Source: Prochlorococcus sp. AG-449-J16
GTDB lineage: Bacteria > Cyanobacteriota > Cyanobacteriia > PCC-6307 > Cyanobiaceae
Reading direction: 5' to 3'
DNA: 64,000 bases
Assembly (NCBI GenBank): GCA_003209565.1
Contig: QCQK01000004.1
Span: 26,518-90,517 of the forward strand
Below are positions 16,765 through 64,000 of this stretch, piece after piece; the first letter of the stretch is position 1; every line of letters begins with the position of its first letter. The notes below the pieces were generated by a model. The model made no database searches and had not been told where the DNA came from. It was given only the letters and a program-made list of their open reading frames with translations. A program made the position numbers and the translations under genes.

Positions 16765-16886
16765 ATAAAATTTAATTTTTAAAATAATCCATAAGTCAGG
16801 AATCATTAATTTAGTTAATTTTTAATCAAAAAACCCAAATAATGAATTGAGATTAACTATCTTAATTAATGTAATAAAAAAAAAGA

Positions 16887-18164: not shown

Positions 18165-18173
18165 TATAAAAAA

Positions 18174-19253
18174 ATGAACGTTTTAACTTCAATAACAGTA
18201 CTTGGATTCCTAATATTTTTTCATGAGATGGGGCATTTTCTTGCAGCCATCTTGCAAGGTATTTATGTTGATGGATTTTCAATTGGCTTTGGGCCTTCAA
18301 TTATTCAGAAAAAATTTAGAGATATTACTTATTCATTCAGAGCCTTTCCTCTTGGAGGCTTTGTATCCTTCCCTGATGAAGAACTAAATAATATTGACCC
18401 TAAAGACCCAAATCTTTTAAAAAATAGGCCAATAATTCAAAGAGTTATTGTAATTTCCGCTGGAGTATTTGCCAACTTGATACTTGCTTACTCAATCTTA
18501 ATTATAAATGTAACTACTGTTGGTATTCCATTTGATCCAGAACCAGGCATTTTAGTTTTAGCTACTCAACCTGAAAAAGCTGCCTCTCTTGCTGGTTTAG
18601 AACCAGGTGATAAAATATTAGAAATCGAAACTAGCACTTTAGGCGTTGGGGATCAAGCCGTTTCTACTTTAGTAAAAGAAATTCAAAATTCACCAGACGA
18701 ACCAATTTCAATAAAAATTGAAAGGGACGGGAGTTTCAAAGATTTAACTTTGGTACCAAAAAATACTGATGGGAAAGGAACAATAGGTGCTCAATTGCAA
18801 CCGAATATAAGGCAAGAAACTAAAAAGACAAAAAACGTTTTCGAACTTTTTAAATACACTAATAATGAATTTTCATCACTTTTAGTAAAAACAATTCAAG
18901 GTTATAAAGGTTTAATAACAAATTTCTCCTCAACAGCTCAACAATTAAGTGGTCCTGTAAAAATCGTTGAAATCGGTGCACAATTATCCCAACAAGGTGG
19001 AACAGGCATATTATTATTTGCGGCTTTAATTTCTATTAATTTAGCAGTACTTAATTCATTACCTTTACCACTGCTAGATGGAGGACAACTTGTTTTCACT
19101 CTAATTGAAGGTTTTAGGGGAAAACCTGTTCCAGTAAAGGTACAAATAGTTGTTACTCAGTCCAGTTTTTTTCTTTTAGTTGGACTAAGCGTTTTGCTTA
19201 TCATAAGAGATACTAGTCAACTATTAATCGTACAAAGATTATTAAACCAATAA
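18174..19253 (+). CDS. rseP: RIP site-2 metalloprotease RseP
   Basis: FHEMGHFLAA HExxH motif, PDZ, NSLPLPLLDGGQLVF. Confidence 0.93.
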   Translation: MNVLTSITVLGFLIFFHEMGHFLAAILQGIYVDGFSIGFGPSIIQKKFRDITYSFRAFPLGGFVSFPDEELNNIDPKDPNLLKNRPIIQRVIVISAGVFANLILAYSILIINVTTVGIPFDPEPGILVLATQPEKAASLAGLEPGDKILEIETSTLGVGDQAVSTLVKEIQNSPDEPISIKIERDGSFKDLTLVPKNTDGKGTIGAQLQPNIRQETKKTKNVFELFKYTNNEFSSLLVKTIQGYKGLITNFSSTAQQLSGPVKIVEIGAQLSQQGGTGILLFAALISINLAVLNSLPLPLLDGGQLVFTLIEGFRGKPVPVKVQIVVTQSSFFLLVGLSVLLIIRDTSQLLIVQRLLNQ

Positions 19254-19317
19254 ATAAATTTTTAAAACTGTTATCCAAGCTGTTAATATAATAATTAGTT
19301 TTAAATATCCTAACTAA

Positions 19318-19620
19318 ATGGCAAAAAAGTCCATGATTGCGAGAGAAGTTAAACGCAAAAAACTTGTGAAGAAATATGCTGAAAAAAGAAAAGCATTATT
19401 AGATGAATTCAATGCTGCAAAAGATCCAATGGAAAGGCTAGAAATTCATAGAAAGATTCAAGGTCTGCCAAGGAACTCTGCACCAAATAGAGTAAGAAAT
19501 AGATGTTGGGCGACTGGTAAACCTAGAGGAGTATACAGAGATTTTGGTCTTTGCAGGAATCAATTAAGACAAAGAGCTCATAACGGTGAACTTCCTGGGG
19601 TAGTTAAATCAAGTTGGTAG
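19318..19620 (+). CDS. rpsN: 30S ribosomal protein S14
   Basis: [24 protein letters not shown] ... [30 protein letters not shown]. Confidence 0.97.
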
Positions 19621-19791
19621 TAAAAGTTTTTAACTCAAGTTCTACATTTCTCAAGAAAAAATAACACTTTTATAAAATAAAGTCACTATATAAGACATTT
19701 TTAAAAATTTTTATAGCTTATCTAAATAATTTACTCAATATGTCCCTATTAAATGTAAGAATAAATTATGTATAGATTTATAATTTAAAAA

Positions 19792-21957
19792 GTGGAAGGA
19801 CAAAATAAGTCGATCACGTTTGACGGACGAGAGATACGACTAACTACAGGACTATATGCTCCTCAAGCAAGTGGATCAGTAATGATTGAGTGTGGTGATA
19901 CCTCACTATTAGTTACAGCGACAAAAACTGCCAAAAAAGAACCATCAGACTTTCTACCTCTGATATGCGACTATGAAGAAAAACTTTATGCTGCAGGGAG
20001 AATTCCTGGTGGTTTTATGAGGAGAGAAGGTCGCCCACCAGAAAGAGCGACTTTAATTGCAAGATTAATTGATAGGCCAATGAGGCCACTTTTTCCCACT
20101 TGGATGAGGGATGAGATTCAAATAGTCGCATCATGCCTTTCTCTAGATGAAAGAGTTCCAGCAGATGTTTTGGCTGTTACGGGGGCTTCAATAGCAACTT
20201 TAGTTGGAGAGATTCCATTTTATGGGCCAATGGCTGCGGTAAGAGTTGGGCTTATAGGGGATGATTTCATCTTAAATCCTAGCTATAGAGAGATTGAGAA
20301 AGGAGATTTAGACATTGTTGTTGCTGGATCACCAGAGGGTATCGTCATGATTGAAGCAGGTGCAAATCAATTATCAGAGCAAGATACAATCGAAGCTATA
20401 GATTTTGGATATGAGGCTGTTACTGAACTTATTAAATCGCAAGAAGATTTACTAAAAGATTTAGGAATAAAACAGATTAAGCCATCTGACCCTGAAGAAG
20501 ATAAAACATTGATCTCTTATTTAGAGAAAAATTGCACAAAACCTATTGAGTTAGTTTTAAAGAAATTTGAAATTTCAAAGGAAGAGAGAGATCTTGAACT
20601 CGAAAATATTAAAACTGAAACACAAAGCAAAATTGATTCACTTAAAGATGACAATCAAGTAAAAGTTCTAACCTTAGAAAATGAAAAATTAATTCACTCC
20701 GACTTTAAAAAACTTACAAAGAAATTAATGAGGTCTCAAATCATTAATGATGGGAAAAGGGTTGATGGTCGTGAATTAGATGAAGTGCGAAAAATTTCAG
20801 CATCAGCCGGGATTCTTCCAAAAAGGGTTCATGGTTCAGCCTTATTTCAAAGAGGTCTAACTCAGGTTTTATCTACTACCACTCTTGGGACACCAAGCGA
20901 TGCTCAAGAGATGGATGACCTTAATCCAAGCACAGAAAAAACTTATCTGCATCACTATAATTTTCCACCATATTCTGTGGGAGAAACTAGACCGATGAGA
21001 ACTCCTGGGAGGAGAGAAATTGGTCATGGAGCGCTTGCAGAAAGAGCAATCATTCCAGTCCTTCCAGGTAAAGAAACATTTCCATATGTACTTAGAGTCG
21101 TTAGTGAAGTGTTGAGTTCCAATGGCTCAACTTCAATGGGTTCAGTTTGTGGAAGCACACTTTCACTCTTAGATGCAGGTGTTCCTTTAAAAGCCCCTGT
21201 GAGCGGTACTGCTATGGGATTAATTAAAGAGGGTAAAGAAGTAAGAATTCTCACTGATATTCAAGGCATTGAAGATTTTCTTGGAGATATGGATTTTAAA
21301 GTAGCAGGAACCGAAAAAGGAATAACAGCTCTGCAAATGGATATGAAAATTACAGGTTTACCAGTCTCAATTATTTCTGATGCGATCAAAAAAGCTCGAC
21401 CTGCTAGATTACATATCTTGGAAAAGATGCAAGAGGCAATAAATGAACCTCAAGAAGCCTTATCTCCTCATGCCCCAAGACTTTTAAGTTTTAGGATTGA
21501 TCCTGAACTTATAGGGACTGTTATTGGCCCAGGCGGCAGAACAATTAAGGGCATAACAGAGAGAACTAATACAAAAATAGATATCGAGGATGGAGGAATC
21601 GTAACTATCGCATCTCATGATGGTGCTGCTGCTGAAGAAGCGCAAAAGATTATTGAAGGACTCACTAGAAAAGTTCATGAAGGGGAAATTTTCTCTGGTG
21701 TTGTAACCAGGATAATACCTATTGGGGCCTTTGTAGAAATTCTTCCCGGGAAAGAAGGCATGGTTCACATATCTCAATTATCTGAAGCAAGGGTAGAAAG
21801 AGTTGAAGATGTAGTAAGACAAGGAGATGAAGTGACAGTTAGGGTGCGAGAGATAGATAGTAGGGGGAGAATCAATCTTACCTTAAGAGGTGTTTCACAA
21901 AATAATGGCATGTCATATCCAGAACCAACACCAACCCCCGTAGCTCCTTTAAATTAA
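19792..21957 (+). CDS. pnp: Polyribonucleotide nucleotidyltransferase
   Basis: PNPase with KH ([17 protein letters not shown]) and S1 domains, GTG start. Confidence 0.97.
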
Positions 21958-24789: not shown

Positions 24790-24829
24790 GCTTCCTTAGC
24801 TCAGCTGGATAGAGCAACTGCCTTCTAAG
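24790..24829 (+). repeat. attL-like truncated tRNA-Arg 5' half (40 bp)
   Basis: GCTTCCTTAGCTCAGCTGGATAGAGCAACTGCCTTCTAAG identical to first 40 nt of tRNA at 33332. Confidence 0.95.
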
Positions 24830-24920
24830 AAAATCCAACAACATCTACAGAATCAAGTAATAGCTTAAACAACATTAGTTATACCAACGGATTATAAGAA
24901 AATAACATATAAAAACAATA

Positions 24921-24954
24921 GGTTATTATTTGTGATTATTGGTTATTATTTGTG
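24921..24954 (+). repeat. tandem 14-bp direct repeat GGTTATTATTTGTG (x2, 20-bp period)
   Basis: copies at 24921-24934 and 24941-24954. Confidence 0.85.
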
Positions 24955-24956
24955 TT

Positions 24957-24980
24957 CTGAGTGACCAACTGAGTGACCAA
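24957..24980 (+). repeat. left arm-type repeat CTGAGTGACCA-A-CTGAGTGACCAA
   Basis: same 24-bp unit with one mismatch at 33290-33313. Confidence 0.9.
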
Positions 24981-25041
24981 CCCCACTTGCAGTTTTTTAT
25001 AGTTGCGGTTATTTTAATTTTAAAGAAATAGCTATTTTAGG

Positions 25042-26298
25042 TTGGCAAATCTACTTGAGTGGGAAAAAAGATTAAAACAGGCTGTTGCACAACAACACAA
25101 AATAGGTTGGTCTGTGCGTGAAAAAAGGGGTAAATGTTTAATTCAGCGGTATTGGAAAGATACAGGAACTTATGAAAGGAAGGTAATTCCTGTTGAATGG
25201 GAATCAGATCAACTACTAAACATTCTTAATTCATTAAACAAAATTAGTGAATTAATGGTTAATACAAAATGTACTCTTGCTGAAGCAACAAAGATAATAT
25301 TTCCAGAAAATAAAAATACACCAAATACTAACTGGTCATATTTAAAAGATGAATATAAAAAATACAAAGAAGAAACTAAAAATATAAGTTCAACAACTTG
25401 GAATGGTGTTTACATGGTTACGTTAAAAAGAATTATAGAAATGATGAATGGTGATAATCCACCAAACTCAGGAAAGGGAATTTTAAAAGAACTTCAAAAA
25501 GATAGTAAAGGTAAATTAACTGTAAGCAAGGGCAGGGTTAAAAGAATAGAAACAGGTAAAACTTTTCTTGAATGGTGTGTTTATAGAAAAGGATTAAATG
25601 AACGCTGGTTACCACCACCACAAATTGAAATTAAAGAACTAAAAGCTTCTGGTGCTAGAAAAGATGATTCTAATAATTCTGGTAAGGCAGAAAGAATTGA
25701 AGATGACCAACTATTGATACTGTTAGATTCTTTTGCTGATACACCTACAGGCAGATCATGGAGACTAGCAACTGGTCTGTTAATCACATTTGGAATACGT
25801 TGTGTTGAATTAAAATATTGCAGACCAAAAGATAGTTTACTTGTAATTGATTACAGCAAGGTAAGCAGTAAAGGATCAACTAAACCAAGAGAAGTTGAAG
25901 GTTTAAGTCCAGCTGGAAGACCACATCTACATGAAGAACTACTATTGGAATTATCATCAGGTATTACAGCCCTGCCTTCCCTAGGTAGTCAAAATAGGCA
26001 CGCAGCAAGATCATTTATTAGAGCATTGCAAAGAACTTCAACTAATACTTATTGGAAGAAATTAGAAGCAGATGCAGCAGCAGTTGGTAAAAAGATTTCA
26101 ACTTATTCCATGCGTCATGCCTACTGTTTTAGAGGTGCAGTACTAGGTGATCTTAGTGCAGACTTTTTAGCGGAAAATATGGGTCACAGTTTGCAAACTC
26201 ACCTGAAAGATTACCGAGACTTTTATTTAGGAAAAGAGAAAAAGGCAAAATTTGCAGCAGCTAGACAAAAATTATCACTAGAATCTTACAAATTGTAA
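25042..26298 (+). CDS. int: Tyrosine recombinase / integrase of the element
   Basis: TTG start; catalytic pattern GIRCVELKY, HAARSF, STYSMRHAYCFRG, NMGHSLQTHLKDYRDFYLG; adjacent to attL. Confidence 0.88.
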   Translation: MANLLEWEKRLKQAVAQQHKIGWSVREKRGKCLIQRYWKDTGTYERKVIPVEWESDQLLNILNSLNKISELMVNTKCTLAEATKIIFPENKNTPNTNWSYLKDEYKKYKEETKNISSTTWNGVYMVTLKRIIEMMNGDNPPNSGKGILKELQKDSKGKLTVSKGRVKRIETGKTFLEWCVYRKGLNERWLPPPQIEIKELKASGARKDDSNNSGKAERIEDDQLLILLDSFADTPTGRSWRLATGLLITFGIRCVELKYCRPKDSLLVIDYSKVSSKGSTKPREVEGLSPAGRPHLHEELLLELSSGITALPSLGSQNRHAARSFIRALQRTSTNTYWKKLEADAAAVGKKISTYSMRHAYCFRGAVLGDLSADFLAENMGHSLQTHLKDYRDFYLGKEKKAKFAAARQKLSLESYKL

Positions 26299-26529
26299 AG
26301 CGTATTAGTGTAGTACATTAGTAAATTAAGTATAAATATATCTTATATAAAGAATTACTGGTATCACTAGGTTCTTTACTCTTATATATACATCAGTATA
26401 TGTATAAATGATATCACAATAACATCAGTTTAATATCGTTTAGTTGTAGTACTTAAGCTATTTAAAAAATATTTTTTCTGACAAATAACTATACATAACA
26501 TATAGTTTTAGTAAGTTTTAATTTGTTTT

Positions 26530-26760
26530 ATGAGTAATTCAGATAAAGAATATTGGGTAACAACTACTGAAGCTATGAAGATATTGAATGTTACTAGGCA
26601 AAGATTATGTAGATATTGGTGTGATAAAGAAAAAGGTTTTTTAATTGAAGGTAAACATTGGAAGAAAGGAATGTATTTTAATACCACTAGATATTTTGAG
26701 ATAAACCGCTGCAAGGCAACAGTTATGAAACAAGGTTATATGTTAGTTAATAGTGCATAA
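26530..26760 (+). CDS. excisionase/AlpA-like small DNA-binding protein
   Basis: WVTTTEAMKILNVTRQRLCRYW wHTH; position after integrase. Confidence 0.6.
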   Translation: MSNSDKEYWVTTTEAMKILNVTRQRLCRYWCDKEKGFLIEGKHWKKGMYFNTTRYFEINRCKATVMKQGYMLVNSA

Positions 26761-26885
26761 CCTTTTCCTTATGTATTACTTTATATATGAATATATAAGA
26801 ATATATATTTATATATAAGACTGATATATTACACCAGTAAACTATTATTTTTATTCTGCAAATCCTACCAATCTTATTTATACTT

Positions 26886-27119
26886 ATGTCATACATGTCA
26901 TACAAAAAGAAGATAATGAAGCTTAGAACTTATGCAGAAGAATCTTACAAGTGGGCTAATTTGACCCACAGACATATCTTTAGACTCCCTAAGAGATTAG
27001 ATGACTGGTTATATAGTTACTCAACTGTACATGGTGTAGATAAGTCTGTAGTGGTCAGATACGCACTAGAAAAATATGCAAAGAATGATGGAGATTATGA
27101 CCCGCAACACGAGTTGTAG
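26886..27119 (+). CDS. ribbon-helix-helix-like small protein
   Basis: FRLPKRLDDWLYSYSTVHGVDKSVVVRYALEKY. Confidence 0.5.
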   Translation: MSYMSYKKKIMKLRTYAEESYKWANLTHRHIFRLPKRLDDWLYSYSTVHGVDKSVVVRYALEKYAKNDGDYDPQHEL

Positions 27120-27128
27120 GCATAAAAA

Positions 27129-27152
27129 AACCACCTATTCCCGTAGGTGGTT
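27129..27152. terminator. terminator-like perfect hairpin AACCACCTA-TTCCCG-TAGGTGGTT
   Basis: 9-bp perfect stem immediately after the RHH-like gene; preceded by A7, followed by TTCTTCATC. Confidence 0.65.
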
Positions 27153-27208
27153 CTTCATCAGATAAAAATGGCTGCTCAAGTCAAAATTTACCTACAGGTA
27201 TTCTATCA

Positions 27209-27646
27209 ATGAACAAATTATTTGAAACAAGGTACGGAAAAGAAATATTTGAAATGAAACCTAATCTGCCAAAAGCAGGGGTTACATGTGAACACTACAT
27301 TACTGACTACAACACCAAGAAGTCTTTTTACTATTGGTTGGGTGAGTTTAACGAGCTAAAGGAAGCAGGGCATGTATTCAATGGTGCAGATGAACTGAGA
27401 ATACAGTTTTTAAATCTTCCAGCTGAAGTAAGGCAATGTATCCATGAAAGGATATTTGGGGTTGGTTGGACTTATCAAGGTACAAAGAAAAGTCTTTATC
27501 TAGCTGCTGTAGCAAGTTTTAAACCAAAGTCTATTTTACTTTCGTCTGTATATTCAACAGCTGTCTATAACAATGAAAGTGAAACAACTTACAAGTTCAA
27601 AGAACAGACTTTTTTAAACAACATTAGAAAAGGATATTTCAAATAG
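27209..27646 (+). CDS. hypothetical element protein
   Basis: ORF whose stop overlaps the start of the primase-helicase gene. Confidence 0.6.
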   Translation: MNKLFETRYGKEIFEMKPNLPKAGVTCEHYITDYNTKKSFYYWLGEFNELKEAGHVFNGADELRIQFLNLPAEVRQCIHERIFGVGWTYQGTKKSLYLAAVASFKPKSILLSSVYSTAVYNNESETTYKFKEQTFLNNIRKGYFK

Positions 27647-30192
27647 TGGTAGTTACACCTGTAGTTAAACCAGTTACTGAAACTGTTAAACCAGATCAGT
27701 TAATAGACACAACAGAAGCAAATAAGATGTTGCGGTTACTGGGTGTTGGTTTAACTGATGGTGTAATAATTTGCTGCTATGGAGAAACTAATAAGTACTT
27801 TCCTAAGCGTGCAAGGAACAGAAACTACAACTGGGCTGAAGTAAAACTACTAGCTCGTGATGGTAACAGGGCAAGATTATTTGAACAGGCAGAAAAAGCC
27901 CTGCGTGATCCTAAAACAAATAGTTTAGGCTGGATTACTTCCCCAGGCGGTTCAGCTAAGAAAGGGAGAAAAGAAGTTACTGTTGGAAATTTACTTGTAT
28001 ATGAAATTGATGGTGAATCATTAGAGCATCAATGGAAAGCATGGGAAGATGCACACCTTCCAAAACCAACAATGGTTCTTTTTACAGGTGGGAAATCTTA
28101 TCACGTTTACTACAGGCTAGATAATTATTATCCAATTAAAACTATTGAAATTTGGCGTAAAAGGTTAAGTCAAACAATATTTAACTGGACTGGTTTTACA
28201 ACAGACCATGCAATGCACAATGCGGTGCAACCATGCCGATTAGCTGGCGGAATACACCCCAAGACTGGCGAAAGATCAAGAATAGTAGAAGAAAGTGGTG
28301 CAATATATAGTCAACGTGAAGTAGAAAGTTTTTTAGATCCACTTGAAGAAGAAGAAAAAGAAGTTGGTATTGGTGCAGGGTTTTTATGGAGACCTGATGC
28401 TGAAGGTGAAACTATAGATGTAAGTGATTATCCAAGTGCTAAGGATCTTATAAATGTTGAATTACCTGTTGAGTTAGCAGTATCACCAAAAACAATGAAT
28501 GTTATTAATACAGGTCTTAAGAGTGGTTGTAAGGGTAATAGATATACAAAGGCACATAGTATTAGTCAGACATTACAGGCAGGCAGAAAGCAGTTAGAGG
28601 ATCTTGACTACAAAGTAATAGAAGGTGATGTTGAAAGACTCTACACAAAGTACTGTACTAATTCTGATTTATACGAAAGTGATATTAAAAGGTGTTTTGA
28701 TAGACATTTTGAACCTTATGGTTCAGGCAACATGACTTGCGGTGAATTTTCAAAAGTTTATTTAAAAAGAAGAATTGCCAAATATTGCAAAGAAAAGGGT
28801 TATTGGGAGAAAAATATAAAAAGTAGTGCTGTTACAACTGCTGATAAAAAAGATGATTCTGTTATTAATTTAGTTCTTCCTACTGGTACAGAAGTTGAAG
28901 TAGAAAATACTGTTGTTAGTACTTATAAGTTCTTCCTTGAGTATGTAGCAACTGTTGTTATGGAAGAAAAGAACATGCTTAGAAGATATGTCTATATAAG
29001 GTATGTAAAAGACCAATTAAAACTAAAACATGTAAAAGATAACGAGTTAGCAGGGCTGATAATGGAAAATCAAGATGTAATCATGGGTAATACTTTTAGA
29101 CCAATTTATGCAGAAGAAAGAATTAAAAATGAAGTACCTAAAGTTGAATGGGTAATAGAAGGTTTTTTACCAGAACATGACGCAACTTTAGTAAGTGGTC
29201 AGGCAAAAACAGGCAAAACTAGGTTAATAGTTCAACTATGTAAATCAATACTAAAAAAGCAAATATTTTTAAATTATCCAGCACCAAGTAAGTCTAGAAA
29301 AGTAATACTGATAAGTGATGACCAATCTTATGCAGATACCGCTGAAATGCTGTTGAAGGCTGGCATTTACCACCATGAAGACTTAATCATATCTGAAAAA
29401 TTTAGGCTTACTACAGACCAGTTAGACGAGGTTTTAAAACTTATAAGAATTTATCCAGATGCAATAGTAATTTTTGATTCTTTAAGGTCAATTACTGTAT
29501 CAAGTTCTGTAGAAGAAAATAATTCTTTGATGGGCATGCTGCTATACGATTTGAAGAATCAATGTATTAAAGCTCAATCAACTTTACTGGTAATACATCA
29601 TGCAAATAGATCAAATAATGTAGGTGTTCAATCTGTTTCTGGTCATGGATCAATTAGTGGTGCATGTAATACCATCATCACAATGCACTACTTACAAGAT
29701 GAAAGTAATAAAGATATTAAGAATACTAGAAGTAGAAGATTAGTAAGAGAAGCACGTTCAGGTCAGCCTGCCGATATGGTTGTTGAACTTGATGTTGATA
29801 CATCATCTGTTCACTACTCAATAGATTTTGATGATTATGAACTACAAGAAGAAAAAGCTAAAGAACAGGAAAAACTAAACAAGATATCAATTAAAGAACA
29901 TACTTTTTTAAGTGCAATGCTGGAATGGTCAACTAAGCATGGTACAGCTGCAACTATTATTGAATTAATGAAAGAAGCTAACCTTTGCAGGGCTAACATC
30001 AAAAGAAAAGAATTTAATAAAACAGAAAATAATACTTATACAGCTATTGGTAAGAAAGTGCATCAGCTGGTCATTGCTAAGTACATCAATGAAATTAGTG
30101 ATACATCAGGTGTTATTGGATCTGGTAGAAGAAAGTTTTATAGCTTAACTGAGTCAGGCAAGGATTTTGTTGAACGTCTTGATAGCTTTTGA
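27646..30192 (+). CDS. primase-helicase (N-terminal prim-pol-like domain plus RepA-type AAA ATPase)
   Basis: LLVYEIDGESLEHQWKAWEDAHLPKPTMVLFTGGKSYHVYYRL primase-like; LVSGQAKTGKTRLIVQL Walker A; AIVIFDSLRSI Walker B; LLVIHHANRS. Confidence 0.8.
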   Translation: MVVTPVVKPVTETVKPDQLIDTTEANKMLRLLGVGLTDGVIICCYGETNKYFPKRARNRNYNWAEVKLLARDGNRARLFEQAEKALRDPKTNSLGWITSPGGSAKKGRKEVTVGNLLVYEIDGESLEHQWKAWEDAHLPKPTMVLFTGGKSYHVYYRLDNYYPIKTIEIWRKRLSQTIFNWTGFTTDHAMHNAVQPCRLAGGIHPKTGERSRIVEESGAIYSQREVESFLDPLEEEEKEVGIGAGFLWRPDAEGETIDVSDYPSAKDLINVELPVELAVSPKTMNVINTGLKSGCKGNRYTKAHSISQTLQAGRKQLEDLDYKVIEGDVERLYTKYCTNSDLYESDIKRCFDRHFEPYGSGNMTCGEFSKVYLKRRIAKYCKEKGYWEKNIKSSAVTTADKKDDSVINLVLPTGTEVEVENTVVSTYKFFLEYVATVVMEEKNMLRRYVYIRYVKDQLKLKHVKDNELAGLIMENQDVIMGNTFRPIYAEERIKNEVPKVEWVIEGFLPEHDATLVSGQAKTGKTRLIVQLCKSILKKQIFLNYPAPSKSRKVILISDDQSYADTAEMLLKAGIYHHEDLIISEKFRLTTDQLDEVLKLIRIYPDAIVIFDSLRSITVSSSVEENNSLMGMLLYDLKNQCIKAQSTLLVIHHANRSNNVGVQSVSGHGSISGACNTIITMHYLQDESNKDIKNTRSRRLVREARSGQPADMVVELDVDTSSVHYSIDFDDYELQEEKAKEQEKLNKISIKEHTFLSAMLEWSTKHGTAATIIELMKEANLCRANIKRKEFNKTENNTYTAIGKKVHQLVIAKYINEISDTSGVIGSGRRKFYSLTESGKDFVERLDSF

Positions 30193-30217
30193 TTACATAG
30201 CTTACATACATTACATA
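30193..30217 (+). repeat. 9-bp period array: GATTACATA GCTTACATA CATTACATA core TTACATA x3
   Basis: TTACATA at 30193, 30202, 30211. Confidence 0.8.
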
Positions 30218-30358
30218 CCCTAGACTTCAGTTATACCAACCGATCTTATGTAATGATTACTAAATTACTTACTCTTACAAAAGCCCTGCAACTTTGCTTA
30301 ACCAGAATGTTGAACAAAAATTGAATGTTCGTTTCTGAAGGATCAGAAGTAAAAGTAT

Positions 30359-30382
30359 GTAATTAAAGTAATTAAAGTAATC
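30359..30382 (+). repeat. 9-bp period array GTAATTAAA x2 + GTAATC
   Basis: Direct reading; related array at 30423-30446. Confidence 0.8.
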
Positions 30383-30422
30383 TTCTTCCCCTTTTCCTCG
30401 TATCCATTGCAATATCTATTTT

Positions 30423-30446
30423 GTAATTTAAGTAATTAAAATAATC
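30423..30446 (+). repeat. 9-bp period array GTAATTTAA GTAATTAAA ATAATC
   Basis: Near copy of 30359-30382 array 64 bp away. Confidence 0.75.
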
Positions 30447-30539
30447 GTTTTTATTTATTACATGAGACCGCAGGGCTAATAAGGCATAAAAAATTTAGTC
30501 TTTAAGAAACCCAAAAGTTCCCAAGGAAAAATTAAAAAA

Positions 30540-30586
30540 CGGCCTTTATAGAGAAAATCGGCCTTTAATAGTTGGCGGCCTTTATA
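30540..30586 (+). repeat. three spaced direct repeats CGGCCTTTATA / CGGCCTTTAATA / CGGCCTTTATA
   Basis: copies at 30540, 30559, 30576. Confidence 0.8.
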
Positions 30587-31202
30587 AGACACCTACAGCA
30601 GCGTGTAAGTCTTGTTCTGAAACACCTAAGTAAAATTCCAAAGTTCTAATGTTTGAATGACCGCTGATTTTGCAAATCACGTCTAAAGGTATGCCCTGCC
30701 TTTTCATTTCTGTTAGAACGCTTCTACGAAAAGTATGTGTTGCAATATCACCAAAAGGAGAATACTTCCGTAGTGCTTTATCGAAAGATTGACGTTTTAA
30801 ATGACTATTTGGAAATCTTCCTTTAAAAATAAATTCTTCATCACTTTCTGGTTTTGTATGTTGCTTCCATAAGTCCAATTCAAGTTTTAATTTATTGCAT
30901 ATTGGTAAAGGTCTACTTCTATCGGTTTTAGTATCAGTTTTTGGAAGCATTAAAATCCTTCCGTTGTAATTCTTCCATTTAGATTTAGCTGCTTCAGTAC
31001 ATCTTGCACCTGTAAAACGTAAAAGAGTAGCTAAAACTTTATGTGATGAATAAGGTATTGAATCTATTAGTTCATCTAGTTCATCTGGATAAAGAATCCT
31101 AGCTGAACCATATCCGTTAAGTGTCATAGCATTTGAGTTGTTAAATGTAATTAAAAGAGTGTTTAACCAGCAGCTGTAGCAGTCCAGTTGCTGATTTACC
31201 AC
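30582..31202 (-). CDS. second, catalytic-domain-only tyrosine recombinase
   Basis: RFTGARCTEAAKSKW, THTFRRSVLTEM, ISGHSNIRTLEFYLG = R...HxxR...H...Y; only about 180 aa from likely start MTLNGYG. Confidence 0.85.
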   Translation of the reverse strand: MVNQQLDCYSCWLNTLLITFNNSNAMTLNGYGSARILYPDELDELIDSIPYSSHKVLATLLRFTGARCTEAAKSKWKNYNGRILMLPKTDTKTDRSRPLPICNKLKLELDLWKQHTKPESDEEFIFKGRFPNSHLKRQSFDKALRKYSPFGDIATHTFRRSVLTEMKRQGIPLDVICKISGHSNIRTLEFYLGVSEQDLHAAVGVL

Positions 31203-31542
31203 AATTTAGCAACTCGTTTTAGTTATTTACAGGAATACTAAGTAATAAATAGTTCACTATTTTTTATAAATAGTAGTGTTACAAATAACGAATAAAAATA
31301 TTATTATTTTCTACTAAATAGCATATTACAGATAACAAATAATTATTTGACTTTTGAGTTATAGAGGGGGGAGTGTTGCAGTTTTTTGACTTCCAGATGC
31401 CCCTACGGGGGACTTACTTAATAATACTAATTTATCATTTTATTTAACATTTAGCAACTATAAATATCAATTAGTTTATAACAACAATGTATGACAGATG
31501 TTAATACTTAAATAATTAATATTATTATAATCTTAAGTCTAT

Positions 31543-31776
31543 TTGTATATGGATTATTGGTCACCACAGGCTCAAGCAATGAACAGGGCAGTTACTAAAG
31601 CTTCTGGTAAGTTGTTTCCTTACTTTGTATCTGCAAAGTACAAGAGACATTGGGAAGAACAAGTAATGCAAAGATGGTTAGATGATCCATCTGAAACACC
31701 TGATCGCATAGCTTCAAGAAGGTCACCAAATTACAAAGAAACTTACGCAAAGAATCCACCAAAAGAAGGGTACTAA
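31543..31776 (+). CDS. hypothetical element protein
   Basis: ORF, first of a tightly spaced train of small genes. Confidence 0.55.
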   Translation: MYMDYWSPQAQAMNRAVTKASGKLFPYFVSAKYKRHWEEQVMQRWLDDPSETPDRIASRRSPNYKETYAKNPPKEGY

Positions 31777-31777
31777 A

Positions 31778-32233
31778 ATGGACATTCCAATGATTGATGA
31801 CACAGAAAATTTTGTAAGTTTTTGCCAGAAAGCAAATTTACCAATTACAGAATTACCTACAAAAGATAAGCCAATGGAAATGACTTATGAATTGGCAATG
31901 AAGAATATAGATCCATATTTATATGAAAGATTAACTACACAAAAACCTTTGCGTGCTGATGTTGCGGTAAGACACAAAACTGGTGCTTACTGGATTGAAG
32001 ATATTGATGAACTTGAATCAAAAGGTTATACGGGTGTAGCTCAGAATTTAAGAAAACAAGTTGAAGAAGGTCAAAGACAAATACAAGAACGCAAGTTAAA
32101 AGAAATGGCTGAAAGAAATGCAGCAGTTGCAAAACATCATGCAAATAAACCAAAAGGTATGCAATACATGCCCCCACTATCTCCAACTGCGATAGCTAAG
32201 GCTAGGGAACAATGGGGAATAACAGGTGAGTAA
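31778..32233 (+). CDS. hypothetical element protein
   Basis: ORF 151 aa. Confidence 0.55.
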   Translation: MDIPMIDDTENFVSFCQKANLPITELPTKDKPMEMTYELAMKNIDPYLYERLTTQKPLRADVAVRHKTGAYWIEDIDELESKGYTGVAQNLRKQVEEGQRQIQERKLKEMAERNAAVAKHHANKPKGMQYMPPLSPTAIAKAREQWGITGE

Positions 32234-32372
32234 GAAACTAAAGAAAGAACTACAAGATCAATTAGAAGTTTGTGAATACAAACTAAGGTGTGAACTGGAA
32301 TATTTTAGGAAAGAAGTACAACCACTAAAAGAAGAACAAAGACAGTTACTAGATAGATTATCTGAACTATGA
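32226..32372 (+). CDS. small predicted coiled-coil protein (48 aa)
   Basis: Manually read GTG ORF VSKKLKKELQDQLEVCEYKLRCELEYFRKEVQPLKEEQRQLLDRLSEL; overlaps stop of 31778-32233 and ATGA-overlaps next gene. Confidence 0.6.
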   Translation: MSKKLKKELQDQLEVCEYKLRCELEYFRKEVQPLKEEQRQLLDRLSEL

Positions 32373-32803
32373 CTATTACAGCTGGTAGACCAACAAGAAA
32401 TGAAAGTTTAGTACCACCAAAGGTATTTACTGCACTTGCATTGGTTGCTACTGGTACAAGTTTTGAAAAGGCAGCTGAAACTGTATCAATGACTGGTAAA
32501 GCATTGCGAAAGTGGAGAAGCCACAAAGATGTAAAAGATTATCTAGAAGAAATACCAAGAGAGAATATTGATATTGGTACAAATCTTTTAGCAAGTAGAA
32601 ATCATTTATATATGAAAAAATTAGATGAAATAATAATGAATCCAAATACATCTGACTACAACAGAATTGATGCAATAAAAGCAGCCCACATGATCCAGAA
32701 AGAAAATGTATTAGACCGACAGCAAAATAGAAAATTAAATGAAATTAGAGAAATATTGATAGCTAAAGATGCAGGTAGAACTATAGATATTACCAATAGA
32801 TAA
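32369..32803 (+). CDS. HTH protein, candidate phage terminase small-subunit-like
   Basis: GTSFEKAAETVSMTGKALRKWRSHKDVKDYL HTH plus ...YNRIDAIKAAHMIQKENVL; size and layout TerS-like. Confidence 0.45.
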   Translation: MTITAGRPTRNESLVPPKVFTALALVATGTSFEKAAETVSMTGKALRKWRSHKDVKDYLEEIPRENIDIGTNLLASRNHLYMKKLDEIIMNPNTSDYNRIDAIKAAHMIQKENVLDRQQNRKLNEIREILIAKDAGRTIDITNR

Positions 32804-32805
32804 TT

Positions 32806-33027
32806 ATGGATATTTCAAGAGAATTACTAAGTTTGCACAAACGTGCATTAGAACATTCGATACAAGAAAATAAACCAACTTTGCGTATGGTCTTTATTGA
32901 TGAATCAACAGATACTTTTGAAGTTACACCACCTTATGAAGAACCAACTACTCTTGCAGAAATAGCACATGATGAATATGCAATGAAAATATTTGTAGAG
33001 AAAAAACCAGAAGATTGGAAAGATTAG
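32806..33027 (+). CDS. hypothetical element protein
   Basis: 73-aa ORF in the same gene train. Confidence 0.5.
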   Translation: MDISRELLSLHKRALEHSIQENKPTLRMVFIDESTDTFEVTPPYEEPTTLAEIAHDEYAMKIFVEKKPEDWKD

Positions 33028-33029
33028 TA

Positions 33030-33152
33030 TTGGATCAGAAAAAAGAAAAAGAATTAGATTTTAATGAAATTGATGAAAGATTATTAGCTGGCTGGTATGT
33101 GTGTAGTGGTCAAAGAAAAAGATATTTAAAATCAATTTCTAAGAAAAAATAA
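33030..33152 (+). CDS. hypothetical small protein (40 aa)
   Basis: TTG ORF LDQKKEKELDFNEIDERLLAGWYVCSGQRKRYLKSISKKK, 2 nt after previous stop. Confidence 0.4.
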   Translation: MDQKKEKELDFNEIDERLLAGWYVCSGQRKRYLKSISKKK

Positions 33153-33289
33153 TTTTATACATATATATATAGAGTATTTAATTTTAAAAATTTACTGGTG
33201 TGTGGTGCAGGGCTGATATAAAATAGGAAGGTTATAAATCGAACTGTTAAAAGTGTGATTTATTTCACGTTTTTCAAGCGATTTGTTAT

Positions 33290-33313
33290 CTGAGTGACCA
33301 GCTGAGTGACCAA
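33290..33313 (+). repeat. right arm-type repeat CTGAGTGACCA-G-CTGAGTGACCAA
   Basis: pairs with 24957-24980. Confidence 0.9.
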
Positions 33314-33331
33314 ATTGGCGAAAAACCTCTA

Positions 33332-33405
<74 letters not shown>

Positions 33406-58015: not shown

Positions 58016-58088
58016 GGGGCCATAGCTCAGCTGGTAGAGCACCTGCATGGCATGCAGGGGGTCAGCGGTTCGAGTCCGCTTGGCTCCA
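58016..58088 (+). tRNA. tRNA-Ala(GGC)
   Basis: Cloverleaf GGGGCCA...TGGCTCC with G3:U70, anticodon loop ATGGCAT, T-arm GGTTCGAGTCC. Confidence 0.96.
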
Positions 58089-58267
58089 TAAAAGTTTTCA
58101 CACCTTATATGAATTAGTTTTTGGTCAATTTATCATAACTAAACGATACGTTTTGATAAGGTAAAATATGGCTCCTTTGCGTCCACAACTTAGAGTAAGA
58201 ATATTTTATGGTATTAAAAAAGATTTTAATTTTATTCAAAAATTTGATTTTACTTAAGATTCAGTAA

Positions 58268-58933
58268 ATGAGAAAATTACCTGATAAATATTTTAGAATT
58301 TATAATGAATTTTATCTTGATTATTCTAAGAACAATAATATTTTTAGAAAACTTGCATTTTCCTTAGAGGTTTGGTTCCACTTATTAACTTATAAGAATT
58401 ATCCTAATCCTCAATCAATATTAGAATTAGGGGCAGGCAATTTAAATCATGTTAAATATGAAAAAAATTTTAAATACTATGATGTTATAGAGCCCAAAGA
58501 ATTCCTTATAAATGCCTCTGATCCCTTTGACAGAGATAAGATAACTAATATTTATGGCAACATAAGAGAATTACCTGAAAATAAAATTTATGACAAAATA
58601 ATATCTATTGGAGTATTAGAACATATTGAAGAATTAGATTATGTCCTTGAAAAAATATCTTATAAACTTACTTCTCAAGGAAAATTTTTAGTAACTATTC
58701 CCGCTGAGGGAGAATTTCTATGGTGGATTGGATGGAGATTAACAACGGGTATTGCTTTTTGGTTAAAACATAAATTGGACTACGGAGTTATCATGAGATA
58801 TGAACATGTAAATACTGCTAGTAAAGTCATTAGATTATTAAATAAATACTTTAAAATAAATTTCATTAAATCCTTTCCTATTAATATTAGGAATTTTAGA
58901 TTATTTATTTATATCTCGATGACAAAGAAATAG
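58268..58933 (+). CDS. class I SAM-dependent methyltransferase
   Basis: SILELGAGNLNHVKYE...IISIGVLEHIEELDYVL. Confidence 0.8.
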   Translation: MRKLPDKYFRIYNEFYLDYSKNNNIFRKLAFSLEVWFHLLTYKNYPNPQSILELGAGNLNHVKYEKNFKYYDVIEPKEFLINASDPFDRDKITNIYGNIRELPENKIYDKIISIGVLEHIEELDYVLEKISYKLTSQGKFLVTIPAEGEFLWWIGWRLTTGIAFWLKHKLDYGVIMRYEHVNTASKVIRLLNKYFKINFIKSFPINIRNFRLFIYISMTKK

Positions 58934-59042
58934 ATTTTGAAAATCACCTAACTAAAAGAAAAATTGAGGACTTTGCTAAGTATCGTAACCCTAAGAGCAG
59001 CACTTCGACCAACTTAGCTAAAACAGTTCCAGAAACTAGTTA

Positions 59043-59104
59043 TAGCTTGATTGGTGATCTGCATGGCATACAGAGGATCAGGAGTTCGAATCCACTTAAA
59101 TCCA
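59043..59104 (+). pseudogene. decayed tRNA-Ala copy
   Basis: ATAGCTTGATTGGTGATCTGCATGGCATACAGAGGATCAGGAGTTCGAATCCACTTAAATCCA aligns to the D-arm to 3' end of the tRNA-Ala at 58016 with one short gap, mostly transitions. Confidence 0.75.
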
Positions 59105-59238
59105 CTTAAGCTAAAAATTTTAAACAGATTTTAATAGTTTTTATAAAATTTCTCTTTAATTTACTTTATGAGCTATGACTTAAATATTTAAATTTTTTGC
59201 CGATAAAATTCAATAATATTTAGAGAAAGATAAAAATA

Positions 59239-59607
59239 TTATTTAAAGACTATAAACTTTTGCGCAAAAAAAGAAAAAGTTGCCAAAAAAGGTATTGCGA
59301 CTAATACCGCTAAAGTTGAAGAGATACCTAACATACCTATAAATTTTATTAAAAACCATTGAATGAACCAGCTTATTATTACTAAGAAGATATAAGCAAT
59401 AGGATTTCCTTTACGCTTGAAAACCCCATATTTGTTTGCTAAAAAACCCAAATATGCATGTAAAACTTGACTAAGAAATGTTGCCAAACTCAAAGGCAAA
59501 ATTAATAGGATTAATATTAGTGAAGTATTACTTAAAAGTGTTATCAAGAAACCAAAAAATACAAATTTAATAAAGGATTTCGATTTAAAAGTTTTTAAAG
59601 AATACAT
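59239..59607 (-). CDS. GtrA family membrane protein
   Basis: FIKFVFFGFLITLLSNTSLILILL...QKFIVFK, four TM. Confidence 0.8.
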   Translation of the reverse strand: MYSLKTFKSKSFIKFVFFGFLITLLSNTSLILILLILPLSLATFLSQVLHAYLGFLANKYGVFKRKGNPIAYIFLVIISWFIQWFLIKFIGMLGISSTLAVLVAIPFLATFSFFAQKFIVFK

Positions 59608-59662
59608 ATTTTCAACTTTAAAAAGGATAGATTTGAAGTTTTTGATATTGAATATTTAATAT

Positions 59663-60736
59663 TTAGAAGATATCTAAATCTGCCATATTAATTTTCCAAT
59701 TTCTGATATCAAATATTTGAGGTGAAAATTCATCATTAGGGACTATAAATAATTCTAATGGCGTTGGTAAGAGAAAATTTGGAATTCTTGGGAAAATAGG
59801 ATTTGATAAAGGATTATTTTTTTGAATAGTTCTTAGAGAAAGTATTAAATTACAATTTTTCTTGATAGCTAAAGTAATTAACTTTAAAAAGATTATTAAT
59901 TCTATAAGAAAACTTTTCTTTATAATAATAATTTCCATTATGACGAGAATCTTTAATCCAAATTTTTCTGCCTCTCTATAAGCTATATAACCTATAAGAT
60001 TATTCTCAGAAAATATATATTCTAGGTAATATTTTATTTTGCTATCCAAACTATATCTCCATCGAATCCATTTTTGGCTTCTTTCACCTTGAATGAGATT
60101 ATCTCTGTAGTAATTTCTTATCATTTTTTCATACTGCTTATTTCCTCCATCACTTTTAGAAAAATTTATTTTGAAAATATTTTGGATTTTATTGAGTAAA
60201 AATATTAGGCATTTGTAGATATAAGATGTCAAAAAATTGGGAATTATTATTTTAAACTTCTCATTTTTTATTGAATTAAGTATAGGAATTACTCTTAACT
60301 CAAGTTTTCCTATAGGCTTAAGTTTTAGAATTTTCTTATAAATATCTATAGAAATTTCATTTGGAATCATTATGCTTAAATTTGAATATGGGATATCTTT
60401 TTTAATAAAAAATGGTGATGATAGCTTGAGAAAATTATCTAATTTTCTATTATTTTTGTGTATAAGTAGATCGCAAAGATTAGCACCCTTAATAATAGAA
60501 TTTTTAAAAACAAAGTTTTTTCTTTGATAACTAATTCTAGCTATTAATTCATCCTTACAATATCCGTTAATAGCAAAAGATAGTCCCTCAGGATTATTTA
60601 AATATTTCCACCTTAAATGTTCTTCTTGCGATATGGGATTGTTTTTAGAATATTCCGTCATGCTTAATAAAGCATATTTTTTGATAATTGGAATATTTAT
60701 TAATTCCTTAATAACAATGAACTCTAATTTCTTCAT
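59663..60736 (-). CDS. GNAT-like acyltransferase, hypothetical
   Basis: SQEEHLRWKYLNNPEG and KWIRWRYSLDSKIKYYLEYIFSENNLIGYIAYREAEKFG resemble GNAT-type proteins. Confidence 0.5.
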   Translation of the reverse strand: MKKLEFIVIKELINIPIIKKYALLSMTEYSKNNPISQEEHLRWKYLNNPEGLSFAINGYCKDELIARISYQRKNFVFKNSIIKGANLCDLLIHKNNRKLDNFLKLSSPFFIKKDIPYSNLSIMIPNEISIDIYKKILKLKPIGKLELRVIPILNSIKNEKFKIIIPNFLTSYIYKCLIFLLNKIQNIFKINFSKSDGGNKQYEKMIRNYYRDNLIQGERSQKWIRWRYSLDSKIKYYLEYIFSENNLIGYIAYREAEKFGLKILVIMEIIIIKKSFLIELIIFLKLITLAIKKNCNLILSLRTIQKNNPLSNPIFPRIPNFLLPTPLELFIVPNDEFSPQIFDIRNWKINMADLDIF

Positions 60737-60742
60737 GAGGTA

Positions 60743-61382
60743 CTAATATTTGCAAATAATAGGTTTTTTATTTCCTGAATTAATATTACATGCGATGGAA
60801 ATATACCAATCTTCAAACTTCATAAAACATGAATTAAGACTATATCCTGCAGATTTATTTTCAATAGTATTAGTATCTAGTTTGTAAGTCCATTTTGAAA
60901 GATCATTGAAAATACTGCCTTTTTGCCACTTTATTGCAGCCTCTTTTCTAACCCATAGTTTAAGCACCTCAGAATTGATGTTATCCTCCTTGAGATTTAA
61001 AATAAATTTCTTTTCATTAGATGTAAAAAATTTATTTAATATTTTTTTTGCTTCAAAAAATCTATCTGATCTTTCAATATCAACTCCTATATTTTTTGGC
61101 GACCATCCTATAAGTAAACCATCTCTACAGTGACTAAAATTAACATGACCCATATCGGGGGGTAATTTAGGTGGTAATCCTGGGGGGGGATATTATTGGT
61201 ATATCTAGTGCCGGTATTCCAAAAATGTTGGATAAAGCTTCCCTCACATATCCTCTAGAGTGTTCGTATTGAAATGATCTACTTAAAGACATTTTTTGTT
61301 TCCATTTTTTTTCTTGAAAACTTATGGGTTTTAAACAAGATTTTATAGGAACAAACCAAATTGATATTTCTTGTTTATACAT
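60743..61382 (-). pseudogene. Sfp-type 4'-phosphopantetheinyl transferase split by a 1-nt frameshift at a homopolymer
   Basis: ORF 61167-61382 (WFVPIKSCL...HSRGYVREALSNIFGIPALDIPIISPP) and ORF 60743-61153 (MGHVNFSHCRDGLLIGWSPKNIGVDIER) are the two halves; removing one C restores SPPGLPPKLPPDMGHVNFSHC. Confidence 0.85.
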
Positions 61383-61490
61383 ATTTTTAATTTTTAAAGA
61401 GAATAAATTATCTTAAAAAGTTTTTTGAATCCTCATACATAAATAATTTATGCGTTTGAATTACTTGAAAAAAATTATAGAAAATTAAAA

Positions 61491-62168
61491 TTATTTACCT
61501 CCATTAAGCTTAAGTATTTCTCCATTATAAAAATCTGATTGTTGTATGAACTTTATAGCGTGAATAATGTCATCTGATACACCAAGTCTTCTTGAGGATG
61601 TATTTGAGATTATTTTTTTAATTTTTTCTTCATTAAAAGATTCTATTAATCCTTTTTCAAAGTATCCTAATTCAATTATATTTGAAGTAATACCAAACCT
61701 TCCATATTCTTTTGATAAAGTCTTATTGTATCCTATGAGAGCTGACTTACTTGCGGCATAAATACCAGCACCTTTAGCTCCTTCGTCTCCAACTAAAGAT
61801 GAAAAGTGAATAATTCTTCCCCATTTTTGATTTATCATAATAGGAAGTAGAGCTTGAACCAAATAAATATTCGAAAAAAAATTCAATTCAAATGTTTCTC
61901 TAACTTTCTCTATTGGGTAGTTAGCTAGTAAACCGTCATAACTCTTTACAGCAAGATTCAAAACCGTTATTTTGTTTAGATTCCTCTTATACTTATTTAC
62001 TAATTGATCAATCTCTTGATGGTTTAAAAGGTTAATATTAACACAGATACCTTTTCCATTATTTTCTAATTTTTTTTTATTACTTATAGCTATCAATTCA
62101 TTATCTACTGAAAGTTTTTTGAAAAGCTCGTAGCCTAATCCGCCTGACGCACCTGTTATAAGAAGCAT
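61491..62168 (-). CDS. SDR family oxidoreductase (FabG-like)
   Basis: LLITGASGGLGYELFKKL; YAASKSALIGYNKTL. Confidence 0.87.
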   Translation of the reverse strand: MLLITGASGGLGYELFKKLSVDNELIAISNKKKLENNGKGICVNINLLNHQEIDQLVNKYKRNLNKITVLNLAVKSYDGLLANYPIEKVRETFELNFFSNIYLVQALLPIMINQKWGRIIHFSSLVGDEGAKGAGIYAASKSALIGYNKTLSKEYGRFGITSNIIELGYFEKGLIESFNEEKIKKIISNTSSRRLGVSDDIIHAIKFIQQSDFYNGEILKLNGGK

Positions 62169-62172
62169 AGAA

Positions 62173-63147
62173 TTACCACCTAATTATTGTAGATCCTAAT
62201 GAATAACCAACTCCAAAACCTATTATCAGAACTTTATAGCCAGGAATTAATTTTTTTTCTGAGATTGCATCTTTTAAAGCTATTGGTATGGAACAGGAAA
62301 CAGTATTTCCAATCATTTTCAAGTTAGAGTATGTTTTATGCTTTTCAATACCAATTTTTTTACATAGCATTTCTATTACCAATTTACTTGCTTGATGAAA
62401 TATAAAAAGATCAATATCTTTTAAATCTAATCCATTTTTATTTAAGGTTTTTTCTAAAAGTTGAGGAACTTTACTGAGAGTAAATAATAAAATTGCTGGT
62501 CCATTCATAAAAAGTTTTTGTTTGTCACGCTCTAAATTTCCTCTAGAGCCACTTCCTTCAACAATTAATTCTTTTGAACCTGATCCATCACAACCAAATG
62601 TGAAATTACCAATATAAGAATCACTATTATCTTTTTCAACAAAGCAAGCAGATGATGCGTCGCTAAAAATCATTTTATTTGTGCGGTCATTTTCACTTAT
62701 GAACTTGGAATAAGTTTCAGCACAAATAATTAAACAATTATTTATTGTATTAGATTTTAACAAAGAAGAGGCAACAGCAAGTGAATTGACAAAACCTGAA
62801 CATCCTAAATTAATATCTAAAGCAAGAATATCATTATTCATATTAAGCTTTTCTTGTAAAATACAAGAAGAAGGAGGTAATGCATAATCTGGCGTTTGTG
62901 AAACAAATAATAAGGCATCTATTTCTCCAGGTTTCACATCATATTCTTTAAAAAGTTTTTTTGTTGCAAAGAATCCTAAATCAAGGCTTGTCTCATCTTT
63001 AGCAGCAATATATCGCTGAAAAATTCCTGTTTTTTTTTGAACTTTATCCACATCCCAATCAGGATGTATCAATTTTAATTGATCATTAGTTTGAACTTTG
63101 TTTGGTAAGTAATAACTAATTTTCCTTAAATTTAAACTGGTTTTCAT
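62173..63147 (-). CDS. 3-oxoacyl-ACP synthase III-like
   Basis: ALDINLGCSGFVNSLAVASSLL active Cys; LFIFHQASKLVIEML; KMIGNTVSCSIPIAL. Confidence 0.9.
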   Translation of the reverse strand: MKTSLNLRKISYYLPNKVQTNDQLKLIHPDWDVDKVQKKTGIFQRYIAAKDETSLDLGFFATKKLFKEYDVKPGEIDALLFVSQTPDYALPPSSCILQEKLNMNNDILALDINLGCSGFVNSLAVASSLLKSNTINNCLIICAETYSKFISENDRTNKMIFSDASSACFVEKDNSDSYIGNFTFGCDGSGSKELIVEGSGSRGNLERDKQKLFMNGPAILLFTLSKVPQLLEKTLNKNGLDLKDIDLFIFHQASKLVIEMLCKKIGIEKHKTYSNLKMIGNTVSCSIPIALKDAISEKKLIPGYKVLIIGFGVGYSLGSTIIRW

Positions 63148-63157
63148 TAAAAAAATT

Positions 63158-63400
63158 CTAATCAGTCATGAGATTATTTGCTTTTAATACTTCTTTGATA
63201 GCAGTTATGCTAGTCGCTTGTGATAATTCTGTAATTTTAGAGCACTTCCCTTCTAATGCCTGATCTAAATTCACAAGAATAGATAGATGACCAAGAGAAT
63301 CCCATAAAGAATGCCAATCTTCATTACCGCTACTTATTGTTCCTTTTTTTAACTCTAATGATCTTTCAATTATTTCGTTAAGATCTTTTTCTCGAAACAT
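63158..63400 (-). CDS. acyl carrier protein-like
   Basis: 80 aa; DWHSLWDSLGHLSILVNLDQAL around the DSL phosphopantetheine site. Confidence 0.8.
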   Translation of the reverse strand: MFREKDLNEIIERSLELKKGTISSGNEDWHSLWDSLGHLSILVNLDQALEGKCSKITELSQATSITAIKEVLKANNLMTD

Positions 63401-63405
63401 ATTAT

Positions 63406-64000
63406 TTAATAAGCAGAATATATATCAGTCCAACATATCAACTTACCAAACTTTTGACAATAGTCTATAAATCTCTGATTTTTTAGTTTTTCTAATTTTT
63501 CAAAATGTTTACCTAAATCTTCAGGGAGGAACCACTGATTATGTGAAATCCTTTTGATATTTTGGAAATTGTTATTTGCTATCTCAAGAATTTTTTCTGA
63601 ATTAGAAAGAGATATCACAGGAAAGAATATTTTACCATTTTTATTTAAATAATTTCTTGATTCATTAAGTACTTTTTCTATATTTGCGGTACCATCAAGA
63701 CCAGCATCGCAAGGAACATTTTTAAACCAGTCGGAAATCTTAGCAACTTCTTCTGATATACCAGAAATATCATCTACAATTGCATCGAATTTATGGCGCT
63801 TCCAGTTAGAAAAAATATTTGATTTAATAGCTTTACCTTCGCAATCATTTAATTTAATATTTTGTTCACAGACATTTACAGCTTCATTAGAGATATCAGA
63901 ACAATAAATTTTTTTTGCTTTATTAAGTTTGAATAATGATATACCAACTACTCCATTGCCGCATCCCAAGTCTAATAATTTATCAACTTTTTTTATATTA
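63406..64000 (-). CDS. class I SAM methyltransferase (PrmA/HemK-like), truncated by window edge
   Basis: KKVDKLLDLGCGNGVVGISLFKLNKAKKIYCSDIS; the frame stays open upstream of the listed ATG to the window end. Confidence 0.75.
   Translation of the reverse strand, partial: NIKKVDKLLDLGCGNGVVGISLFKLNKAKKIYCSDISNEAVNVCEQNIKLNDCEGKAIKSNIFSNWKRHKFDAIVDDISGISEEVAKISDWFKNVPCDAGLDGTANIEKVLNESRNYLNKNGKIFFPVISLSNSEKILEIANNNFQNIKRISHNQWFLPEDLGKHFEKLEKLKNQRFIDYCQKFGKLICWTDIYSAY

Follow-up and report, generated by a model that had tools for sequence, protein, structure and literature searches.

Genes and features at the tRNA-Ala locus

The window analysed here is the whole stretch of 64,000 nucleotides, with a G+C content of 30%. 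ARAGORN places an intact tRNA-Ala (GGC) gene on the forward strand at 58016–58088 and finds no second tRNA-Ala in the window. Local alignment identifies a decayed duplicate of positions 28–73 of this tRNA at 59059–59104 on the same strand, with a score of 26 and 36 of 46 bases identical. In 20 dinucleotide-shuffled windows the best score anywhere on both strands was 13, and shuffling the relic itself 2000 times gave scores of at most 14. The degenerate tRNA-Ala copy named in the original prediction is thus real and stands outside the shuffled background. Its mutations had been described as mostly transitions, and indeed eight of the ten differences from tRNA-Ala are G to A, an excess that is as expected for neutral decay in a genome of 30% G+C. 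A search with the Rfam tRNA model misses the relic even when matches up to E≤5 are admitted; it is therefore no longer a tRNA. An Rfam antisense-RNA match overlapping the tRNA lay below its gathering threshold and was discarded as chance.

The extent of the copy had to be corrected. It had been taken for a whole decayed tRNA, whereas only positions 28–73, the stretch running from the anticodon stem-loop through the 3’ terminus, are duplicated and the similarity to the tRNA 5’ part belongs to the end of an element. The segment 59041–59058, read earlier as a decayed D-arm with a short gap, is such a conserved end: the same sequence, shortened by the same 4 nt, is found in most aligned right ends of other genomes and was therefore not made by decay of the window copy.

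Between the intact tRNA and the end of the relic lies a unit of about 1 kb (58089–59104), in which the tRNA is followed by a left end, a methyltransferase gene, a right end and the duplicated tRNA 3’ part, all on the forward strand. The left end (58089–58198; end alignments and end-model search) includes, according to the alignments, a near-palindrome, TTATCATAACTAAACGATACGTTTTGATAA, at 58130–58159 and a degraded arm-type repeat, CCTTTGCGTCC, at 58174–58184. The cargo ORF at 58268–58933 encodes a SAM-dependent methyltransferase-like protein of 221 aa, with a weak Methyltransf_23 match in Pfam just under the cut-off. It has a single relative among 266 genomes of the genus (54% identity); the 3.7 kb surrounding that gene yielded no right end. 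The right end of the window cassette (58985–59058; alignment and end-model search) contains degraded tandem arm-type repeats at 58992–59010 and closes with a tRNA-like stretch, TATAGCTTGATTGGTGAT, which runs up to 59058 immediately before the core; both were recognised by alignment. There is no recombinase ORF in 58089–59104. Judged from these alignments, the relic is a genuine fossil attachment site that closes a one-gene mobile cassette. The cargo ORF is still open. With degraded arm repeats at both ends and a degraded outer core, the window copy appears to be inactive and is probably immobile.

Surface-polysaccharide-type genes lie on both flanks of the cassette, from which we guess that the methyltransferase acts on a glycan-related substrate. 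The adjoining 59105–59236 had no match among the fetched sequences. The region 59237–64000 encodes GtrA-like, phosphopantetheinyl-transferase-like, SDR and ketoacyl-synthase-like proteins; collinearity was limited to two other genomes (G086 and G107; 76–77% DNA identity), in which the block lies away from tRNA-Ala. We considered these two as the empty site of the cassette and rejected them on account of this location. Nor do they support the idea that the relic occurs in strains lacking 58089–59042: they share the block from 59237 rightwards, with neither tRNA-Ala nor relic adjoining it. On the other side, lexA adjoins tRNA-Ala in several relatives. In the own genome lexA lies at a contig end (G000:C24, 5–556, reverse strand), on a different contig from tRNA-Ala; either the upstream side of tRNA-Ala has therefore been rearranged here or a large insertion occupies it.

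Distribution of the cassette ends in Prochlorococcus

With a 171-base query around the relic, matches elsewhere extended beyond the tRNA part by about 75 bases on its upstream side, and in each first case with a placeable tRNA they lay 1–5 kb downstream of tRNA-Ala. Matches in other genomes went down to E-values of 7e-17 for the left and 3e-22 for the right end, and alignments across genomes revealed that in both ends the sequence outside the tRNA part is conserved as well. We searched the 266 Prochlorococcus genomes, many of which are incomplete single-cell assemblies, with sequence-only models of the two ends that were trained partly on the window sequence. Excluding matches that are merely the tRNA itself, the right-end model detected its target in 43 of the 266 genomes and the left-end model in about 32. 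Where tRNA-Ala could be placed on the same contig, the right end is nearly always downstream of it and on its strand (38 of 39 cases), at a distance of 80 bp to 9 kb. The sole right end on the opposite strand to tRNA-Ala (L148 in G086, 7787–15221) points to a locally inverted segment between lexA and tRNA-Ala.

The right-end consensus reads roughly GTTATCT-CTGCGAGC-AGCC-CTGCGAGC-AAATTAGC-AAAACAGTTGCAAAACCTAGTTATAGCTTGATTGGTGAT, followed by the tRNA core; its last part is D-arm-like, with four bases missing in most copies. The left end begins right after the tRNA and comprises the motif CTAGTTATACCAATTAG, the near-palindrome TTATCATAACAAAACGATACGTTTTGATAA and tandem CTCTGCGACC repeats.

At the fetched loci we delimited 29 elements, 26 of them with both ends detected by the models. 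Their size ranges from 182 to 4443 bp (median 1204 bp), and 22 contain a single cargo ORF on either strand. The cargo is unrelated between elements: FkbM and other methyltransferases, an acyltransferase-SGNH protein, a GDSL hydrolase, a metallo-beta-lactamase fold protein, a formyltransferase plus glycosyltransferase and, from sequence reading and lacking a Pfam match, sulfotransferase-like proteins. No recombinase was seen among the ORFs of the 29 elements. Tandem arrays occur at four loci (L029, L110, L111 and L121), and one element in L111 (1278–1459, reverse strand) consists of the two ends only, 182 bp in total, with no cargo and well-kept arm repeats.

These comparative data support the earlier view of a fossil att site bounding an integrase-less insert with a methyltransferase gene. 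That the element is without its integrase is also correct for the insert itself, but the loss probably did not happen here: given that some 29 relatives with the same ends and different cargo lack an integrase too, the window element most likely arrived in non-autonomous form.

A tycheposon-like element at tRNA-Arg and recombinase remnants at tRNA-Ala

Tycheposons of Prochlorococcus have reportedly been described by Hackl et al. (Cell 2023). The second-hand descriptions on which we rely characterise them by tRNA borders, a tyrosine recombinase and a size of 4–200 kb (PMC10872708) and include satellite members among them (PMC11389934). The window contains an intact tycheposon-like element of 8.6 kb at tRNA-Arg (24790–33405) with two different tyrosine recombinases; all of its features lie on the forward strand unless stated otherwise. 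It begins with an exact 40-nt 5’ fragment of tRNA-Arg as the outer att copy (24790–24829), followed by tandem arm-type sites of the left end, CTGAGTGACCAACTGAGTGACCA (24957–24979), and a 418-aa tyrosine recombinase with conserved catalytic Arg/His/Tyr (25042–26298). Further inside are a primase/helicase-like replication protein (27646–30192), a second, conventional tyrosine integrase of 206 aa on the reverse strand (30582–31202; PF00589) and a terminase-small-subunit-like protein, a feature of phage satellites (32369–32803). The right end (33282–33331), with arm-type sites at 33290–33311, directly precedes the intact tRNA-Arg (TCT) that ARAGORN places at 33332–33405. A tRNA-linked insertion history at both the Arg and the Ala locus, as originally predicted, is therefore true, though the Arg locus differs in that its element is intact.

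The right end of the Arg element has a layout homologous to that of the Ala cassette. The two align over 44 bp, and none of 1000 shuffles scored as well; the left ends align collinearly over about 105 bp, a result equalled in 6 of 1000 shuffles.

The 418-aa recombinase has no match in Pfam, and PF00589 alone is for this reason misleading as a search for a nearby integrase. Relatives are found in many genomes, and nearly invariant columns of the family include R253, R358, H359, H382 and Y391. One other genome (G156) contains a recombinase of 94% identity. The AlphaFold2 model (pLDDT 79.9, pTM 0.47) best matches full-length lambda integrase; with TM-scores of 0.35–0.40 the predicted fold was used for superfamily assignment only. 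A helix and three strands open the model, an arrangement that would fit a domain for arm binding.

In several genomes recombinases of the same family lie within about 140–180 bp of tRNA-Ala, on either side. Remnants of such genes persist in the cassettes themselves. In L204 (G165) the left end of the cassette is continuous with a truncated recombinase gene that is 50% identical to the Arg recombinase, L119 has kept about the first 20 recombinase codons after the left end, and L031 has kept the recombinase start region. About 22 codons of another subtype remain in an older element of G161. Because the remnants are of two subtypes, the recombinase seems to have been lost in at least two lineages. 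The first recombinase codons in some cassettes point to non-autonomous deletion derivatives of tycheposons, probably moved in trans. On this evidence the family appears to represent cut-down tycheposons that kept their ends and lost the recombinase gene. No intact autonomous element whose ends match these exactly turned up in the 266 genomes or in viral contigs, and recombinase fragments were all that the search as a whole brought up; exact searches of the viral contigs for both ends and the core, as well as a protein search of them with the Ala-type recombinase fragment, gave no hit. Neither end was present at 20 loci around integrases picked from a PF00589 search.

Probable site-specific integration at the tRNA

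The cassette ends carry paired 8-bp repeats of two types, GACC and GAGC. Assigning each end the type of the majority of its repeats, we found that left and right end agree in 13 of 14 typable elements (permutation p = 0.003). In G161 a 635-bp cassette is located between tRNA-Ala and the left end of the older element, while in G114 the left end of this older element (about 90% identical over 200 bp) directly follows the intact tRNA. As read from the alignments, the two genomes, which are not a strain pair, represent the occupied and the unoccupied state of the same junction. The position of the exchange can be narrowed down from elements on both sides of the tRNA: a 5’-side element in G170 leaves a tRNA 1–42 fragment by lexA, and 3’-side elements in G114 and G150 (13 and 7.8 kb) leave a 28–73 fragment. 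Since the two duplications overlap in the anticodon stem-loop (28–42), we place the exchange there. As positions 28–73 are duplicated, the 3’ part of the intact tRNA (58043–58088) would have come from the incoming element.

We consider 58016–59104 to be a fossil, integrated, non-autonomous cassette at tRNA-Ala (GGC), belonging to a family of tycheposon deletion derivatives that are moved in trans, with a probability of roughly 0.8. The family would have kept both attachment ends, with one cargo gene or a few in place of the recombinase and other genes. In the proposed mechanism another element provides a tyrosine recombinase of the tycheposon type, which would attach to the arm-type repeats close to the two ends, presumably with its N-terminal domain, and cut within the anticodon stem-loop common to tRNA and cassette. 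The cassette, as a circular intermediate, would insert at the tRNA, its own copy of positions 28–73 restoring the tRNA and the displaced chromosomal copy staying at the far end to decay. Later insertions at the restored tRNA would push older cassettes outward and so give rise to arrays.

The most serious alternative is that a complete tycheposon at tRNA-Ala lost its recombinase and other genes in place, the short elements being independent local decays. How much of the ancestral left end is kept does differ between cassettes, and in L119 and L204 it reaches into recombinase codons, so that deletions must have happened repeatedly, and recombinase-bearing elements do occur at tRNA-Ala. In the fetched set, however, small elements with recognisable ends and a single full-length cargo far outnumber partly decayed intermediates. 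Local decay also accounts poorly for well-kept ends around no cargo at all in the 182-bp element and for a small element inserted at the tRNA beside an older one in G161, and we regard it as unlikely. Far less probable still is that homologous or illegitimate recombination simply duplicated a segment of the tRNA, with no site-specific recombinase involved. This reading would draw on tRNA genes being common recombination points and on the surface-polysaccharide-type genes of both flanks, but in many genomes the copy begins at one and the same tRNA position (about 28) and is preceded by the same end of about 75 bp, which pairs with a specific left end. That the relic is a chance similarity of an intergenic stretch to tRNA-Ala has nothing in its favour beyond the absent Rfam tRNA match; the alignment score set against its shuffled maximum and the recurrence of the relic at the same place in other genomes make this the least probable reading, to the point of being negligible.

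Relation to known systems

Repeats of tRNA fragments in Prochlorococcus islands were reportedly noticed by Coleman et al. in 2006. Copies of a pseudo-tRNA-Met have been found near a putative phage site (PMC2784084). There as here, repeated tRNA pieces mark past insertions, whereas neither report is known to define paired conserved ends or cassette units (Coleman et al. 2006, PMC2784084). A literature search on repeats of tRNA-Ala or tRNA-Pro in Prochlorococcus brought up no relevant earlier report.

Tycheposons as such are already known; going by the second-hand descriptions, it is the recombinase-less cassette form that is set apart from them. The cassettes resemble tycheposons in tRNA target, cargo, role in island turnover and the recombinase lineage of their presumed parents. 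The window cassette is integrated at a tRNA with a duplicated tRNA part (core 28–73), and its ends have layout and sequence in common with the Arg element, as well as a link to the recombinase through the fragment in L204. By contrast, the hallmark deep-branching tyrosine recombinase is missing, as is a replication gene, and with about 1 kb the cassette falls below the 4–200 kb given for tycheposons (PMC10872708). The Arg element fits the satellite type as far as it is outlined in PMC11389934 and has the hallmark recombinase, provided that the 418-aa protein is this enzyme.

Cis-mobilizable elements (CIMEs) have lost their integration genes, keep attL and attR and accrete in tandem at tRNA genes (PMC5704250). 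The cassettes likewise have no integration or transfer genes, keep both attachment sites (with outer core and arm repeats decayed in the window copy) and accrete in tandem with relatives at a tRNA. They differ in that their ends are homologous to a tycheposon-type element, not to an ICE or IME, and in being very short and mostly single-gene, with many cargoes on the same ends. Measured against these definitions, of which that of tycheposons is second-hand, the cassette is strictly neither a tycheposon nor a CIME and would work like a tycheposon-derived CIME.

With integron gene cassettes the family shares units of mostly one gene, arrays at one anchor and a recombinase from elsewhere. Instead of one folded single-strand attC, however, the Prochlorococcus cassettes have two ends that differ from each other and bear arm-type repeats, together with a tRNA core that is duplicated, and their parent recombinase is not IntI. 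A tRNA-anchored, integron-like system may nevertheless exist. In it, resident or incoming tycheposons would, through their recombinases, gather single genes, each between two conserved ends of tycheposon origin, at tRNA-Ala and probably also at tRNA-Pro, and the arm type (GACC or GAGC) would determine the pairing of recombinase and cassette. We hold this wider proposal tentatively, at a little under even odds.

The findings suggest that the islands of a highly abundant photosynthetic organism may gain and lose single genes that need no recombinase of their own, many of the exchanged genes being methyltransferases and surface-glycan or sulfotransferase-like genes. Vesicle and virion DNA can be screened for the end sequences defined here. 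The cassette reading predicts a recombinase specificity that is directly testable, and the 182-bp element of L111 would constitute a natural minimal substrate for a recombination assay.

Elsewhere in the own genome (G000:C21, loci L257 and L258, about 4914–20630) we observed seven tandem copies of the 3’ 42–50 nt of a tRNA that reads as tRNA-Pro. The copies are 0.9–4 kb apart with small ORFs between them, several are preceded by similar ends of 100–150 bp, and a 427-aa recombinase of the same family is encoded beside them at 3511–4794. The arrangement resembles that of the cassettes, here at a second tRNA.
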